Part shown: in pieces, positions 16,495-21,474 of the stretch
How the letters are laid out: every line of letters starts with the position of its first letter
Position numbering within the stretch: the first letter of the stretch is position 1
NCBI RefSeq assembly: GCF_004792295.1
Contig: NZ_SRRY01000001.1
Coordinates: 2,552,501-2,616,500 of the forward strand
DNA: 64,000 nt
Origin: Pseudoalteromonas sp. MEBiC 03607
Lineage (GTDB): Bacteria; Pseudomonadota; Gammaproteobacteria; Enterobacterales; Alteromonadaceae
Direction of reading: 5' to 3'
Notes under the pieces: generated by a model
What the model saw: the letters and a program-made list of their open reading frames with translations, nothing else
Told to the model about the DNA's origin: nothing
Database searches by the model: none
Made by a program: the position numbers and the translations under genes

Positions 16495-16971
16495 TCAGAG
16501 TATTTCAGTAATGTTGTAAAACTGCTTATTTCCTGCAATAGTCAGTGTTACTTCATCATCAATTTGCTTGCCAATCAGTTGTTTACCTAACGGCGCTTCT
16601 CGGGTTACAACATAAATCGGTTGCTCTTTTACGGTGACCACTAAGCCACCAGCACTTGGACCCATAAAGAACCACTTTGCGTTATCTTGCTCATCGATAA
16701 GACACACTAATGCACCTTCACGAACCTTATTAAATTCGCTTTCTTTAAACACCGTATTGAATGCCTGAATATCACGGTAGCACTCATTAACTCGCTCAGC
16801 TTGCCCTTGCGCTAAATAAGCGGCTTCTAAACCCAAGGTATCGTATTGAGTTTCAGCAACACTTTCTTCGTGAGTTGCTGCATCATGGGCCGCTTTTGCC
16901 GCTTCTTTAGCGTTTTGCAGTTGTGCCTCAAGCGCAAAGTGTAAATGTTCAATTACGTGTGTTTTATTCAT
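16495..16971 (-). CDS. GreA/GreB-like transcription elongation factor homologue
   Basis: A 158-residue protein with a Gre-like layout: an alpha-helical N-terminal half (coiled coil, Ala/Glu-rich, with HEESVAETQYDTLGLE where Gre factors keep their acidic tip) and a C-terminal FKBP-like domain ending in EAPLGKQLIGKQIDDEVTL, the best conserved Gre signature. True GreA/GreB rescue backtracked RNA polymerase. The tip does not show the exact D-x-x-E-N pattern, so it could be a Gre-factor antagonist or a divergent cleavage factor. It is a single gene between RimK and secF. Confidence 0.72.
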   Translation of the reverse strand: MNKTHVIEHLHFALEAQLQNAKEAAKAAHDAATHEESVAETQYDTLGLEAAYLAQGQAERVNECYRDIQAFNTVFKESEFNKVREGALVCLIDEQDNAKWFFMGPSAGGLVVTVKEQPIYVVTREAPLGKQLIGKQIDDEVTLTIAGNKQFYNITEIL

Positions 16972-17047: not shown

Positions 17048-17968
17048 TTACGGCATCTCCATATAGGCTTTGGTTTTATCATCCAGTGTTTGGGTGTAAT
17101 TTTCTGAACTTAACCCCAATAACTGCGGCAAGGTCGCGGCGATACAAATCGATGAGAATGTCCCCACCACAATGCCCACAAATAACGCGATAGCAAAACC
17201 CGTTAATGCAGCCCCTGCAAGCAGCCAAATACAGGCAATGGTAGCAAGTGTTGTGCCTGAGGTGATCAATGTACGCGTTAACGTAGAGCCAATTGCATCA
17301 TTAATCACAACATGGGTATTTATGCGTTGATTGTCTGGCTGAATACGTAAAAGCTCTCTGACTCTGTCGCCAACAATAATTGAGTCATTTAATGAATAAC
17401 CAATAATAGCCAGTAAACTCGCCAGCACGGTTAAATTAAACTCAAGCCCTAGCAAAGAAAACAAACCTAGCACTAAGATTAAATCATGTAACAGTGCAAC
17501 CACCGAACCAACTGCGAGTCGCCATTCAAAGCGCACGGCAAGATAAACCATAATTGCAATCAGCGCTGCAAATAAAGCTAAACAGCCCTGTTCAAAAAGC
17601 TCATCACCCACTTGTGAGCCTAAAAATGAGCTAGATAATACGCTATAGTCGACGCCTTGTTCATTCAGCTCTGCTTGCCAAGTACTCGCTTTGCTAGCCT
17701 CTGGAGCTTCTCTTAAAACAAAGTGATATTCACCCGCTTTACTGATGGCTAATTTACTCGCAACCTCGGGGCTTAACTTTGCCTTTAAATCAGAAATTGT
17801 CGTGACTGACGTTGTGTTAATTTCCGTGATGTAGCCACCTGTAAAATCAAGGCCAAAGTTTAGCCCTTTTACAGATAAAACACTTAAGCTCGCGATGACT
17901 AAAACACAACTTAGCAGTAATCCTAAAACGCGCGCTTTACTCGGTGCAGTTAATGTTGACCAACTCAT
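17048..17968 (-). CDS. secF: Protein translocase subunit SecF (second SecDF pair)
   Basis: A 306-residue inner-membrane protein with six membrane segments. SecF marks are NFGLDFTGGYITEI after the first membrane span, AIIGYSLNDSIIVGDRVRE (the conserved D-x-x-V/I-V-x-x-x-R-x-R/E block) and the LTRTLITSGTTL stretch. With SecD it uses ion flow to pull proteins out on the periplasmic side. Its ATG overlaps the secD stop (ATGA). With no yajC or tgt nearby, this is likely the accessory pair rather than the main yajC-secDF locus. Confidence 0.92.
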   Translation of the reverse strand: MSWSTLTAPSKARVLGLLLSCVLVIASLSVLSVKGLNFGLDFTGGYITEINTTSVTTISDLKAKLSPEVASKLAISKAGEYHFVLREAPEASKASTWQAELNEQGVDYSVLSSSFLGSQVGDELFEQGCLALFAALIAIMVYLAVRFEWRLAVGSVVALLHDLILVLGLFSLLGLEFNLTVLASLLAIIGYSLNDSIIVGDRVRELLRIQPDNQRINTHVVINDAIGSTLTRTLITSGTTLATIACIWLLAGAALTGFAIALFVGIVVGTFSSICIAATLPQLLGLSSENYTQTLDDKTKAYMEMP

Positions 17969-19776
17969 GCTTTAGCCCCCGTTAAATTAGTTAGTTTAAT
18001 GTAGAGTGTTTGGCTAAGCGCTTTCGAAATATAAACGCCAGTAAAGACACTGGTTAATAGCCCAAGCGCTAACGTGATTGCAAAGCCTTTCACCGGCCCA
18101 TAACCAATGGCGTATAAAATAATTGCCGTGATCATCGTAGTCACATTGGCATCAAAAATGGTCGTAAATGCTTGGTTATAACCTTGCTCAATCGCTTGAT
18201 ATGTAGGTCGACCTTTGCGCTTCTCTTCTTTTATTCGCTCAAAGATAATCACATTGGTATCCACTGCCATCCCTATCGTCAGTACAAGCCCTGCAATACC
18301 CGGTAAAGTCAGTACAACCCCCGGTAATAACGACATTAAACCAACTAAAGCCGTTAGATTAAGCAATAAAGCAATATTGGCAATCAGCCCTAAGCGACGA
18401 TACCAAAGCGCCATAAAGGCAAGGGTAATACCGATACCCAGCATTAACGCTGCTAAACCGTGTTCAATGTTTTCACTACCTAAGCTTGGGCCTATGGTTT
18501 GTTCTTGAACGATTGTCACTGGCGCTGTAAGCGACCCTGCGCGTAGTAAAAGCGCTAAATCGTAAGCTGCTTGCGGGCTTTTCATATTAGTAATGCTAAA
18601 ACGAGAACTTAAATGCTGGGCAATGTTTGCTACATTGATCACTTCGCTTTTTTTCACAACGTCGCCATTCGCATCCCGCGAGTATTCAGAATACACCGTG
18701 GCCATTGGTTTACCTATGTTGTGCTTTGAAAAAGCAGACATCGCATCGCCACCTTGCGAATCTAAACTAAGCTGAACTAAAGGCTTGCCCCATTCATCTT
18801 TGCCAACACTGGCATTATTAATGTGATCACCTGAAAAAATCGCCATCGGATCTAAATTAACAACGCCACCGCCTTGTACATTAAACGCTTTACCACCGAC
18901 TTCGACGACCTGGTAAAAATCAAGGGTCGCAGTTGCACCAATAATACGTTTCGCTTCTGATGGGTCCTGCACACCGGGTAACTCAATACGAATGCGCTGC
19001 TTACCTTGTCTTTGCGTTACCGCTTCAGTAATACCAAGCTCTTCAATGCGACCACGCAGGGTTGTTAAGCTTTGCGCCATAACTTGTTTATTGAATTCGT
19101 TTTGGCTTTGCTCATTAAAATGCAGTAATACCGTGGTTAGGTTATTCGTTGTTGATTTAGTTTGCATCAGGCCTTTGAATTGACCTTGTAACGTTGAGAC
19201 AAGTCCTGCAAGTTGCTCCTCACCACTTGGTAAAATTTGTAACTCAACTCCATCTTTTACTTCACTTGCACGGATCCCACGAATTTTGTCTTTACGAAGC
19301 GTCAATTTAGTTTGTTGATACACACTGTTTAAGTGCTCTTGCATTGCTTTATCTAGGTCAACATCAAGCACAAATAAAACGCCACCATTTAAGTCGAGTC
19401 CCAATTTAATCGGTGAAAGACCCAGCTGCTGAAGCCATTGTGGGCTTGTCGCATGCTCAACAATTTTAACCTTTAGCTGTGGGTATTGCGTTTTTATAAA
19501 GCTCAACGCATTAGCACTTTGAGTCGGCTCAGCTAATAAAATAGCCAGTTGTGCTTGGCTATCATTGGCTTCAGTCACTTCAAAACCATGTTGATTTAGT
19601 GACGTTGTCACACTTTGCAGCGTCACAGTTTGATCTGGCAAGCTAATGTGCAACCAAGATTTGTTAGGATAAAGATTAGGTAATGCGCTTACCGCTAGTA
19701 AAATACACGCCGCTATCATAGCGACATAACTCATTTTTAGACGACGCCATAGCGCCGGCTTAGATTTATGTGACAT
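17965..19776 (-). CDS. secD: Protein translocase subunit SecD (second SecDF pair)
   Basis: A 603-residue inner-membrane subunit. After a first span comes a large periplasmic region with GLDLNGGVLFVLDVD, LRGRIEELGITEAVTQRQGKQRI and IELPGVQDPSEAKRIIG, then five spans with LTLPGIAGLVLTIGMAVDTNVIIFERIKEE, the ion-path segment of SecD. The first periplasmic domain is shorter than usual. The ribosome-binding site GAAGGAAG is 6 bases before the ATG and is exactly complementary to a sequence just after the upstream leader gene, so translation is probably gated by that leader. The operon is leader - secD - secF. Confidence 0.93.
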   Translation of the reverse strand: MSHKSKPALWRRLKMSYVAMIAACILLAVSALPNLYPNKSWLHISLPDQTVTLQSVTTSLNQHGFEVTEANDSQAQLAILLAEPTQSANALSFIKTQYPQLKVKIVEHATSPQWLQQLGLSPIKLGLDLNGGVLFVLDVDLDKAMQEHLNSVYQQTKLTLRKDKIRGIRASEVKDGVELQILPSGEEQLAGLVSTLQGQFKGLMQTKSTTNNLTTVLLHFNEQSQNEFNKQVMAQSLTTLRGRIEELGITEAVTQRQGKQRIRIELPGVQDPSEAKRIIGATATLDFYQVVEVGGKAFNVQGGGVVNLDPMAIFSGDHINNASVGKDEWGKPLVQLSLDSQGGDAMSAFSKHNIGKPMATVYSEYSRDANGDVVKKSEVINVANIAQHLSSRFSITNMKSPQAAYDLALLLRAGSLTAPVTIVQEQTIGPSLGSENIEHGLAALMLGIGITLAFMALWYRRLGLIANIALLLNLTALVGLMSLLPGVVLTLPGIAGLVLTIGMAVDTNVIIFERIKEEKRKGRPTYQAIEQGYNQAFTTIFDANVTTMITAIILYAIGYGPVKGFAITLALGLLTSVFTGVYISKALSQTLYIKLTNLTGAKA

Positions 19777-19780
19777 ACAT

Positions 19781-19847
19781 GACTTCCTTCCGGCATTGTC
19801 AGCCGGTAAAAATTAATTCCAAAAATATAAAAGTAACGAAGGAAGTC
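19781..19847 (-). promoter_or_regulatory. RNA switch masking the secD ribosome-binding site
   Basis: In the minus-strand mRNA, GACTTCCTTC (19847-19838) begins two bases after the leader stop codon. GAAGGAAGTC (19790-19781) contains the secD Shine-Dalgarno sequence. They are perfectly complementary over 10 bp and would hide the start region of secD. An inner stem CCGGC/GCCGG (19806-19802 with 19794-19790) lies directly against it. A ribosome paused at the end of the leader would cover the first arm and free the second. This is seen directly as complementarity; the regulatory reading is inferred by analogy with Vibrio vemP-secDF2. Confidence 0.82.
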
Positions 19848-19849
19848 GT

Positions 19850-20287
19850 TTAGCTATGATAGGTCGTATTGGCTTTGTACAAGAGATTAGCGTCTTTCCA
19901 GCCACTAATGCGGGATTTACGTTGAGTGGCTAACGCAAACCATGGGATCACACGCACAGCACCTGGCGGCGCTAAAAAGTGCTCTTTTCCCCAATCTTCA
20001 GCAAAGAATTCAATCAATAGCTCGTAATCAGGATCAACCTGACTATGATAAAGAAACAATGATGAATTACTGGCAGTTAAACGCGGCACAAGGGTATCAA
20101 ACCCCGATGGTTCTACCGGTTTAGGGTGTTCAACTGTATGAGTTTGAGAAATAACTGGGGTTTTAGTCAGCTCGACTTGGAACAATTTAGTCGCAGCATA
20201 GTGTGAGTGATTGTCAGGCATAGCCATGCTCTGTGCACTAAAGAACACAGTAAATAGCAAGATAATGACTGAGAAAAACCGTAACAA
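19850..20287 (-). CDS. vemP-like: VemP-like secretion-monitoring arrest peptide, leader of secDF2
   Basis: A 145-residue exported protein that is not an enzyme. Residues 1-22 are a signal peptide (cut near QSMA). The middle has no clear fold. The last 20 residues begin with RISGWKDANLLYK (R126-K138) and end TTYHS. Vibrio VemP, a nascent chain that stalls the ribosome unless it is being exported, carries a very similar RISGWKETN stretch at its C-terminus (from memory). The position just upstream of secD, the similar size and the RBS-masking stem after the stop all agree. The start is TTG at 20287 with only a weak ribosome-binding site. No other in-frame start is available before a stop at 20303. 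Confidence 0.82.
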   Translation of the reverse strand: MLRFFSVIILLFTVFFSAQSMAMPDNHSHYAATKLFQVELTKTPVISQTHTVEHPKPVEPSGFDTLVPRLTASNSSLFLYHSQVDPDYELLIEFFAEDWGKEHFLAPPGAVRVIPWFALATQRKSRISGWKDANLLYKANTTYHS

Positions 20288-20427
20288 GAACTGACCAATA
20301 AATTAAGCGGATAACAGGGCTATAATGAGGGTAAAAAAATAAAACACAAGGTATTACTTAAATAAAAGTAACTAAAATAAAGCGAGCCTAACTAGACCCG
20401 CTTAGTTAGTTTAACTTTTTAAACAAG

Positions 20428-21474
20428 TTAAACTTCTAATGATGACATGTCGATAACAAAGCGTGAGGCCATATCACCTTGCTTTAATTTATCGAATGCG
20501 TCATTAATTTGGTCCATATTGATCATTTCGACTTCTGGCAGAATATTATGTAACGCACAGAAATCGAGGATCTCTTGGGTTTGCGCTATACCGCCAATTA
20601 ATGAGCCAGCAACACGGCGACGCCCCATTAATAACGGCACTGAGTTAGACTCAGCAAGCTCACCGACTTGACCAACCAATACTTGCGTACCATCAATATC
20701 CAAAAGCGGAATATACGGCGTAAAGTCGTGTTTTACCGGAATGGTATTAATGATCACATCAAATTGATTAGCATGCGCTTGCATGGCTGCTTCATCACTC
20801 GATACCAATAAATCTTTTGCGCCATAAGATAAAACCTGCTGTTTTTTCTTATCACTACGGCTAATTGCCGTAACATGTGCGCCCATTGCAGCTGCGATTT
20901 TAATCGCCATGTGGCCTAAACCACCTAAACCAATCACACCAACACGGCTACCTGGGCCGACATTCCACGTGCGTAGTGGCGAATACGTTGTGATACCCGC
21001 ACATAGAATTGGTGCACATTTAGCAAGGTCTAAGCCTTTTGGCACGCTCAATACAAACTCTTCACGCACCACAATGTGCTTTGAATAACCACCTTGAGTG
21101 AGTTCACCACTGATACGGTCTTGTCCTGAGTAGGTTCCTACCATCCCTTCGCGACAAAACTGCTCTTCACCGTGATGACACTGGTCACAGCTTAAACAGC
21201 TATCAACCATACAACCTACAGCGACATTATCGCCTACTTTATATTTTGTAACGCCACTGCCTACTTCAAGGACACGGCCAACAATTTCATGGCCTGGTAC
21301 GACAGGATACTGAGTCCAGCCCCAATCGTTTTCTGCTGTATGTAAGTCTGAATGGCACACGCCACAATATAGAATTTCAATTGATACATCTTCATCACGA
21401 AGTGCACGGCGTTCAAAATGATACGGCTCTAATGGTTTTTCAGAATCATGTGCTGCATAACCGACGGTTTTCAT
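20428..21474 (-). CDS. NAD(P)-dependent zinc alcohol dehydrogenase (YahK/CAD type)
   Basis: A 348-residue medium-chain dehydrogenase. The catalytic zinc site is in LYCGVCHSDLHTAENDWG and GHEIVGRV, the structural zinc loop in CLSCDQCHHGEEQFC, and the nucleotide-binding motif in GLGGLGHMAIKIAAAMGA. The following SRSDKK favours NADPH. This is the cinnamyl-alcohol-dehydrogenase branch that includes E. coli YahK, a broad aldehyde reductase. The gene stands alone and is divergent from the ABC exporter at 21637. Confidence 0.92.
   Translation of the reverse strand: MKTVGYAAHDSEKPLEPYHFERRALRDEDVSIEILYCGVCHSDLHTAENDWGWTQYPVVPGHEIVGRVLEVGSGVTKYKVGDNVAVGCMVDSCLSCDQCHHGEEQFCREGMVGTYSGQDRISGELTQGGYSKHIVVREEFVLSVPKGLDLAKCAPILCAGITTYSPLRTWNVGPGSRVGVIGLGGLGHMAIKIAAAMGAHVTAISRSDKKKQQVLSYGAKDLLVSSDEAAMQAHANQFDVIINTIPVKHDFTPYIPLLDIDGTQVLVGQVGELAESNSVPLLMGRRRVAGSLIGGIAQTQEILDFCALHNILPEVEMINMDQINDAFDKLKQGDMASRFVIDMSSLEV

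Follow-up and report, generated by a model that had tools for sequence, protein, structure and literature searches.

What governs expression of the second secDF pair in a marine Pseudoalteromonas? In the window (the whole 64,000-nucleotide stretch of Pseudoalteromonas sp. MEBiC 03607 DNA that was analyzed), a reading frame for a 145-residue protein of exported type lies on the minus strand just upstream of a secD gene. The arrangement resembles the vemP-secDF2 locus of Vibrio alginolyticus in having an exported leader before secDF2, an RIxGWK.xN..Y core, and a mask over the secD2 ribosome-binding site. We estimate a probability of about 85% that this leader is a VemP-like secretion monitor, in a variant form with a changed peptidyl-transferase end. 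The sequence comparisons below document how the locus is built, the leader's homology and constraint, the predicted pairing, and the linkage to neighbouring genes.

The leader locus and its predicted RNA mask

The features on which the argument rests are as follows.

20380..20403, minus strand: terminator-like hairpin 3′ of the upstream dehydrogenase-like gene
19850..20287, minus strand: leader ORF, 145 aa, TTG start, TAA stop at 19852-19850 (ORF and translation; homologues in family genomes)
20222..20287, minus strand: signal-peptide-like N-terminus of the leader, MLRFFSVIILLFTVFFSAQSMA (read by eye; hydrophobic stretch also present in several ATG-start relatives)
19877..19912, minus strand: putative arrest core R126-Y137, RISGWKDANLLY (conservation in 84 distinct leaders; invariance in 24 Pseudoalteromonas loci)
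19853..19864, minus strand: TYHS end of the leader, T142-S145, with Y143 and H144 at the VemP P-site and A-site register, W+13 and W+14 (alignment; register from PMC5449182)
19838..19847, minus strand: 5′ arm of the predicted mask, GACTTCCTTC, 2 bases after the leader stop
19790..19806, minus strand: small hairpin CCGGC-TGACAAT-GCCGG adjoining the mask
19781..19790, minus strand: 3′ arm of the predicted mask, GAAGGAAGTC, containing the secD2 Shine-Dalgarno and the exact reverse complement of GACTTCCTTC
19713..19862, minus strand: predicted outer long-range helix joining the end and stop region of the leader (19844-19862) to secD codons 19713-19731 (79% complementary over 19 nt)
17965..19776, minus strand: secD2, presumed regulated gene (Pfam SecD domains; SecD2 clade)
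17048..17968, minus strand: secF2 (Pfam PF02355, Sec_GG)

A first-pass annotation, made from the window's sequence, had described the exported-type ORF directly before secD and assigned it a TTG start. Both points hold, since the ORF spans 19850-20287 and secD 17965-19776 on the minus strand, and TTG is the sole ATG, GTG or TTG codon in the leader frame ahead of the signal-type stretch, with an in-frame stop five codons farther upstream. Given that start, the N-terminal Sec signal characteristic of VemP can be read by eye in MLRFFSVIILLFTVFFSAQSMA, and the hydrophobic stretch is kept in several relatives whose leaders start with ATG. At loci L015 (1450) and L035 (1342), ATT stands at the position of the relatives' leader ATG, where the window leader has TTG.

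The gap from the leader stop to the secD2 start is 73 nt. Because a terminator-like hairpin (20380-20403) follows the upstream dehydrogenase-like gene, the leader and secDF2 are suggested to form a transcript of their own; no match to a sigma-70-type promoter was found within 19700-20480 of the window. The assembly, which comprises two contigs and is rated 100% complete, carries another secDF pair elsewhere (C1 862-865 kb) and a single copy of the leader. The leader matches no family in Pfam or NCBIfam at E 0.01 and no PDB sequence at E 10, and Rfam returns at this locus only an L20-leader match far below the gathering score. Two further reading frames lie nearby: a 158-aa protein after secF2 (16495-16971, minus strand) has a borderline match to the GreA/GreB C-terminal domain, and a short ATG-TAT-GTC-ACA-TAA frame (19766-19780, minus strand) overlaps the secD2 start codon.

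The repeat after the leader stop, which had been proposed to be the reverse complement of the secD Shine-Dalgarno region, is indeed one half of a perfect 10-nt pair (19838-19847 with 19781-19790). A second helix, missed at first reading, can form between CTATCATAGC in the last leader codons and secD codons 19713-19722, and the outer long-range helix is partly present in the minimum-energy fold. When the minus-strand RNA was folded, as had been recommended, the 141-nt region reached −36 kcal/mol, beyond the stability of shuffled sequences (z −2.64; 3/200 shuffles as good), and none of 300 dinucleotide shuffles of the leader-end block matched the native helix with the start region (p 0.003). The predicted probability that the secD2 Shine-Dalgarno is unpaired in the free RNA is about 0.01.

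This pairing recurs in relatives. Across the 86 loci that remained of 174 after near-duplicate removal, each locus's own stop and start regions pair at a mean of −14.6 kcal/mol vs −12.3 kcal/mol for swapped regions, with 0/10000 permutations as good, base composition being uncontrolled in this test. Compared with dinucleotide shuffles (71 loci remaining of 174, related loci not being independent), the 56 distinct loci of the secD class give a Fisher p of 2.7e-9; taken singly, 17/71 loci fall below p 0.05, and the median p for secD loci is 0.18. Native start regions are also predicted to be less accessible than when the stop block is shuffled (0.375 vs 0.425, p 0.0012, 33/55 loci). The pairing and accessibility tests covered loci that had a picked start and a gap within set limits, and the downstream start codons were picked by script, some of them probably wrongly (e.g., L028 and L032). 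The pairing letters differ among loci: GACTTCCTTC/GAAGGAAGTC in the window are unrelated to TTCGTTCTC/GAGAACGAA in L024, and the corresponding complements are ACGCATAGTT/AACTATGCGT in Vibrio mediterranei (L147) and TTAGTTAATCTCA/TGAGATTAACTAA in L046. These fold models predict a stem-loop that masks the secD2 ribosome-binding site.

The leader might instead act on transcription, by attenuation or through Rho, rather than on ribosome access to secD2. A terminator-like pattern does occur early in secD (19728-19706), and leaders of the chaA type, described below, have long structured gaps with terminator-like patterns. However, the recurrent helix of the secD loci ends on the Shine-Dalgarno and start region, and in the window the helix is followed by the start codon with no run of T. 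We regard transcriptional control as improbable.

A conserved core and a divergent end

The leader ends RISGWKDANLLYKANTTYHS and then the stop codon, which places R126, the beginning of the noted C-terminal stretch, as the 20th residue from the end. Across 84 distinct leaders, the core R-x-x-G-W-K-[DE]-x-N-x-x-Y shows 95-99% conservation at its key positions (R 96%, G 99%, K 98%, D/E 95%, N 95%, Y 96%). These 84 are the 85 entries left of 189 after near-duplicate removal, minus L061, which is without W-K. The core statistics are biased in two ways. A W with K or Q after it served as the anchor of the alignment, which fixes W at 100%, and the pattern used to scan named genomes, [SA]GWKD[GSA][NR]x[LQ]Y, itself holds part of the core; that scan kept 80/88 confirmed loci, and none of these counts is per species.

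Within the 24 Pseudoalteromonas loci, ten residues of the core (R, S, G, W, K, D, A, N, L, Y) do not vary, and synonymous codon changes occur at eight of them (all but W and K). The median dN of the last 21 codons is 0.086 vs a dS of 1.12, and dN is 0.43 in the segment 22-50 codons from the end, 0.25 at codons 51-80 and 0.97 at codons 81-110; these medians count 112 to 214 of 276 pairs, those with unusable dN or dS being dropped. By these substitution rates, the protein sequence encoded in the last 21 codons is constrained in Pseudoalteromonas.

Could the leader be an ordinary small exported protein that lies before secDF2 by chance, with the repeat an incidental hairpin? Invariant or nearly invariant columns are also present upstream of the core, around Q83-P86 and at W116, as such a protein might have. 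Yet constraint peaks in the last 21 codons while codons 81-110 from the end are nearly free, in the family the leader and secD2 nearly always occur together (see below), and the pairing recurs with different letters. We consider this explanation very unlikely.

Homology to the Vibrio-type leaders, as first proposed, is borne out by profile-profile comparison: hhalign of 35 leaders from the window's family (three of them of the S41 type described below) against six Vibrio and Grimontia leaders gives 98.3%, E 1.4e-14, over 55 columns. By this measure the window leader shares descent with the Vibrio leaders, which align over about their last 60 residues only, the V. alginolyticus sequence itself being absent from the comparison. 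The Vibrio VemP motif is HRIXGWKETNAMYVXLNXX (PMC7897499, as far as accessible), which agrees with the arrest stretch RISGWKETN that the first-pass annotation had given. In P0065, labelled Vibrio parahaemolyticus by its source, R139, G142, W143, K144, N147 and Y150 stand at the published VemP positions.

According to the accessible text of the VemP structure report (PMC5449182), R139 stacks on A752, W143 on uL22 R92, K144 on U747 and Y150 on C2610, and N154 meets U2506. All four mid-tunnel contact residues (R139, W143, K144, Y150), which meet 23S rRNA or uL22, belong to the conserved set of the 84 leaders. The ribosomal side is also maintained, in that R92 and R95 of the uL22 loop touched by VemP are kept in this genome (E. 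coli numbering).

The end of the peptide is different. Three VemP residues that matter in Vibrio and lie near the peptidyl-transferase centre, L153, N154 and Q156, have been replaced; the window has N140, T141 and Y143 at those registers, and at the register of N154 (+11) an N occurs in 8% of the 84 distinct leaders. The window leader closes with the eight residues KANTTYHS, unlike the VxLNxQ-type end of VemP, and it ends 15 residues after W. The first-pass annotation had expected a different middle region, and the middle does differ, but it is not the sole difference, since the residues nearest the peptidyl-transferase centre have also changed (TYHS-stop vs VxLNxQ). The leader has the C-terminal motif by which PMC10987492, in its accessible text, recognizes VemP-like sequences, RxxxWKxxNxxY (R126, W130, K131, N134, Y137), and it lies directly before a secDF2 that is distinct from SecDF1. 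Because L153, N154 and Q156 are absent, it is classed as a VemP-like variant rather than as VemP proper. A regulatory Arg-85, a short hydrophobic segment and (Hphi)xP elements have been described for the Vibrio protein (accessible parts of PMC11470409 and PMC7793623).

Other secretion monitors are less similar. In the accessible part of PMC10987492, uDF_RQH_Enterobacterales of the related bacterium Alteromonas naphthalenivorans is likewise a leader before secDF2, a stem masks the secDF2 site, and induction of secDF2 by the leader was demonstrated in that study; however, its arrest motif is RGPP, and the window leader is without an R-A/G-P-P-like C-terminal motif of the RQH type. SecM-secA of Escherichia coli shares the secretion-monitor logic and a masked ribosome-binding site, but its motif is FxxxxWIxxxxGIRAGP and its target secA, whereas the window leader lacks WIxxxxGIRAGP and precedes secD2.

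Leaders and second SecD proteins go together in the window's family. The first-pass annotation had suggested a search of other genomes for this ORF before secDF2; the leader was found in 35/147 family genomes, a clear second SecD (E below 1e-149, close to the window SecD) in 33/147, and the leader precedes that SecD in 31 of these 33. The other two genomes (G064 and G050) have a diverged ORF in the same place that keeps the ANLTYRS end and has lost the G-W-K core. Leader-like ORFs of this description lie ahead of secD2 at loci L203 and L204. A further leader (G091) precedes a secD2 that matches in its first half only, and each of the remaining three leaders is followed by an S41 peptidase gene. 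The proposed target itself is supported by Pfam, which confirms SecD and SecF, and by a tree of 31 SecD proteins in which SecD1 (10 rows) and SecD2 (21 rows) separate with 100/100 support. The SecD2 clade holds the window SecD together with the SecDs behind the Vibrio, Moritella, Grimontia, Photobacterium, Psychromonas, Colwellia, Paraglaciecola and Aliikangiella leaders; one genome (G154) has two copies of the SecD2 type.

Searches across the order recovered leaders in 81/394 genomes and 19/114 genera (30 loci given), and a class-wide search beyond the order matched 2/369 genomes, both of the window's own family. Gilvimarinus was the one case outside the usual genera in the scan of named genomes. 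The leader had initially been taken for a single distant homologue of VemP; the homology stands, and in place of a single copy there is a large order-wide family, some of whose members precede other genes.

Proposed action of the leader and the site of arrest

We infer for this leader a stall, its release by pulling, and a salt or ion cue. The leader would start weakly (weak or unusual start codons may be a common trait of VemP-family leaders), and its signal peptide would take the nascent chain to the Sec translocon. The core R126-x-x-G-W-K-D-x-N-x-x-Y137 would grip the tunnel, followed by TYHS and the stop codon. If export pulls the chain, the pause would be released and the ribosome would finish the leader; with the ribosome gone, the region after the stop would fold onto the secD2 ribosome-binding site and SecDF2 would be off. 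If export slows, as it might when the other SecDF is short of its driving ion, the ribosome would be held at the leader end and would cover the 5′ arms of the mask, permitting translation of secD2-secF2.

Where would the ribosome stop? VemP halts when Q156 occupies the P-site and F157 the A-site, positions that correspond to W+13 and W+14 (PMC5449182, accessible text), and this register falls on Y143 and H144 of the window leader. The putative stall codon is Y143 if the VemP register applies, or S145 if arrest occurs at the stop codon. Because the residues nearest the peptidyl-transferase centre differ (TYHS-stop vs VxLNxQ), the stall site may have moved relative to VemP.

One possibility is that the ribosome stops at the leader stop codon itself, the P-site holding S145 and the A-site TAA while TYHS blocks release, unlike VemP, which stops before its end. 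The final residue is W+15 in 58/84 leaders, with S at that position in 49% of the 84, and the last residue is S or A in 23/24 Pseudoalteromonas loci. Modelled opening of the mask is also larger at this register. In the window, the predicted probability of an unpaired Shine-Dalgarno rises from 0.009 in free RNA to 0.09 with Y143 in the P-site and to 0.235 with H144 or S145 there. When the footprint of a stalled ribosome was masked out at 55 secD loci, accessibility increased from 0.370 to 0.482 (VemP register) and 0.511 (last codon) in a comparison without a shuffled control, the two registers differing at p 0.013. Against this, the commonest residues at +12, +13 and +14, T (62%), Y (59%) and H (51%), are no less conserved than the final S, and Y and H match the VemP register. 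A fixed stop position could also serve RNA geometry alone, and 18/84 leaders run 1-11 residues farther while 8 are shorter. Arrest at the stop codon is a serious possibility that we entertain only tentatively.

Several observations count against the leader being a VemP-like monitor of variant type. A ribosome with Y143 in the P-site is predicted to open the mask only slightly. Two relatives keep the ORF without the G-W-K core, the residues L153, N154 and Q156 near the peptidyl-transferase centre are not kept, there is no promoter match, and the pairing is significant in some relatives only.

Leaders upstream of other genes

In the family of genome G421, which is taken to be enterobacterial because Serratia sp. 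Ag1 (L135) shares the locus, 15/197 genomes carry a leader whose end reads GGWKESNxxYRGxLTYHS or nearly so. A DedA-family yqjA gene lies 82-330 nt downstream in 15/15 of these loci and is 71-93% identical to that of L135, whose downstream gene is assigned to the DedA family by Pfam. Three leaders of the yqjA type match the window-family profile (97.9%, E 5e-13). The loci with VemP-family leaders before yqjA are L153-L167, L135 and L069, many of them ending TYHS like the window. Of these genomes, G421 alone was checked for SecD, and it carries one. A single E. coli record was also examined: there yqjA follows exuR with no leader, and yqiM (27 aa, just before yqjA), considered as a leader remnant, was rejected because it has no motif.

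The genus of genome G404 is taken to be Vibrio because loci L172 and L177 end like the named Vibrio loci L152 and L149. There, 65/196 genomes match the L151 leader, and among the 30 loci given, 26 are before secD and two (L168 and L169) are before a ChaA-like gene that shares 79-80% identity with its L151 counterpart; L177 and L193, both described below, make up the rest. At L151, Pfam identifies a Na/Ca exchanger-family (ChaA-type) gene after the leader and then a DedA gene. Only a 3′ fragment of chaA lies downstream of the leaders L177 and L149.

S41 peptidase genes follow the leader at L041, L043, L061 and L140 (Gilvimarinus gilvus) by Pfam, at L042 by tblastn, and at L206 by eye. Inspection by eye also reveals an additional hydrophobic segment mid-leader at L041, L043, L061 and L206. 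Leaders at L150 (Photobacterium), L193 and L078 (contig end) have no assigned target; at L193 the leader is followed by a small unrelated 107-aa protein of exported type and then by a convergent DedA gene. Pairing between stop and start regions is not significant at DedA-type loci (n=10, Fisher 0.16) or ChaA-type loci (n=2, Fisher 0.95) and is marginal at S41-type loci (n=3, Fisher 0.026). Some DedA loci have CCGGTGT/ACACCGG-like complements, mostly unused by minimum-energy folds.

The accessible part of PMC10987492 describes a genome screen made only upstream of secA, secDF and yidC, which kept 339 VemP-like sequences and discarded 24 uORFs without a localization signal. The window leader may already be among the 339; the word Pseudoalteromonas is absent from the main text of that paper. 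The database copy of the leader in P. arabiensis starts at MAMP, which leaves it without a localization signal. Among the matches listed in a literature search whose coverage left out most subscription papers, no paper describes a Pseudoalteromonas leader or yqjA, chaA or S41 targets.

These comparisons suggest that a VemP-type sensor has been reused before quite different genes. We give roughly even odds to a broader proposal, in which arrest leaders with a common mid-tunnel grip form an export-sensing family that spans the order, and VemP represents one of its branches. Its members would vary at the peptidyl-transferase end and would have been re-targeted from secDF2 to other genes of the envelope or of ion homeostasis, namely yqjA, a ChaA-type antiporter plus DedA, and S41 peptidases, with arrest in the TYHS branch, to which the window leader belongs, perhaps at the stop codon.

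In the accessible parts of the sources cited here, VemP monitors SecDF1, which uses sodium in Vibrio (PMC11470409), and in Vibrio cholerae loss of SecDF1 is accompanied by more SecD2 and SecF2, and a mutant without the DedA protein YghB does not grow without sodium above pH 6 (PMC9876793). Deletion of yqjA and yghB in E. coli causes sensitivity to alkaline pH among other stresses (PMC10846249, accessible part). We hypothesize that the common cue of the secDF2, chaA and dedA leaders is a failing ion-motive force. If SecDF-dependent pulling is their input, the re-targeted leaders would sense ion-motive force at the translocon.

The 84-leader comparison separates the apparently universal needs of VemP-like arrest (R, G, W, K, N, Y) from lineage-specific changes near the peptidyl-transferase centre. 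The arrest peptide can thus be divided into a grip and a blocker, a division that is directly testable. The wider, apparently re-targeted leader family is the most novel part of these findings: if the stall is confirmed, secretion monitoring would no longer be confined to sec and yidC genes but would reach yqjA, chaA and the genes for S41 peptidases through the leaders that precede them.
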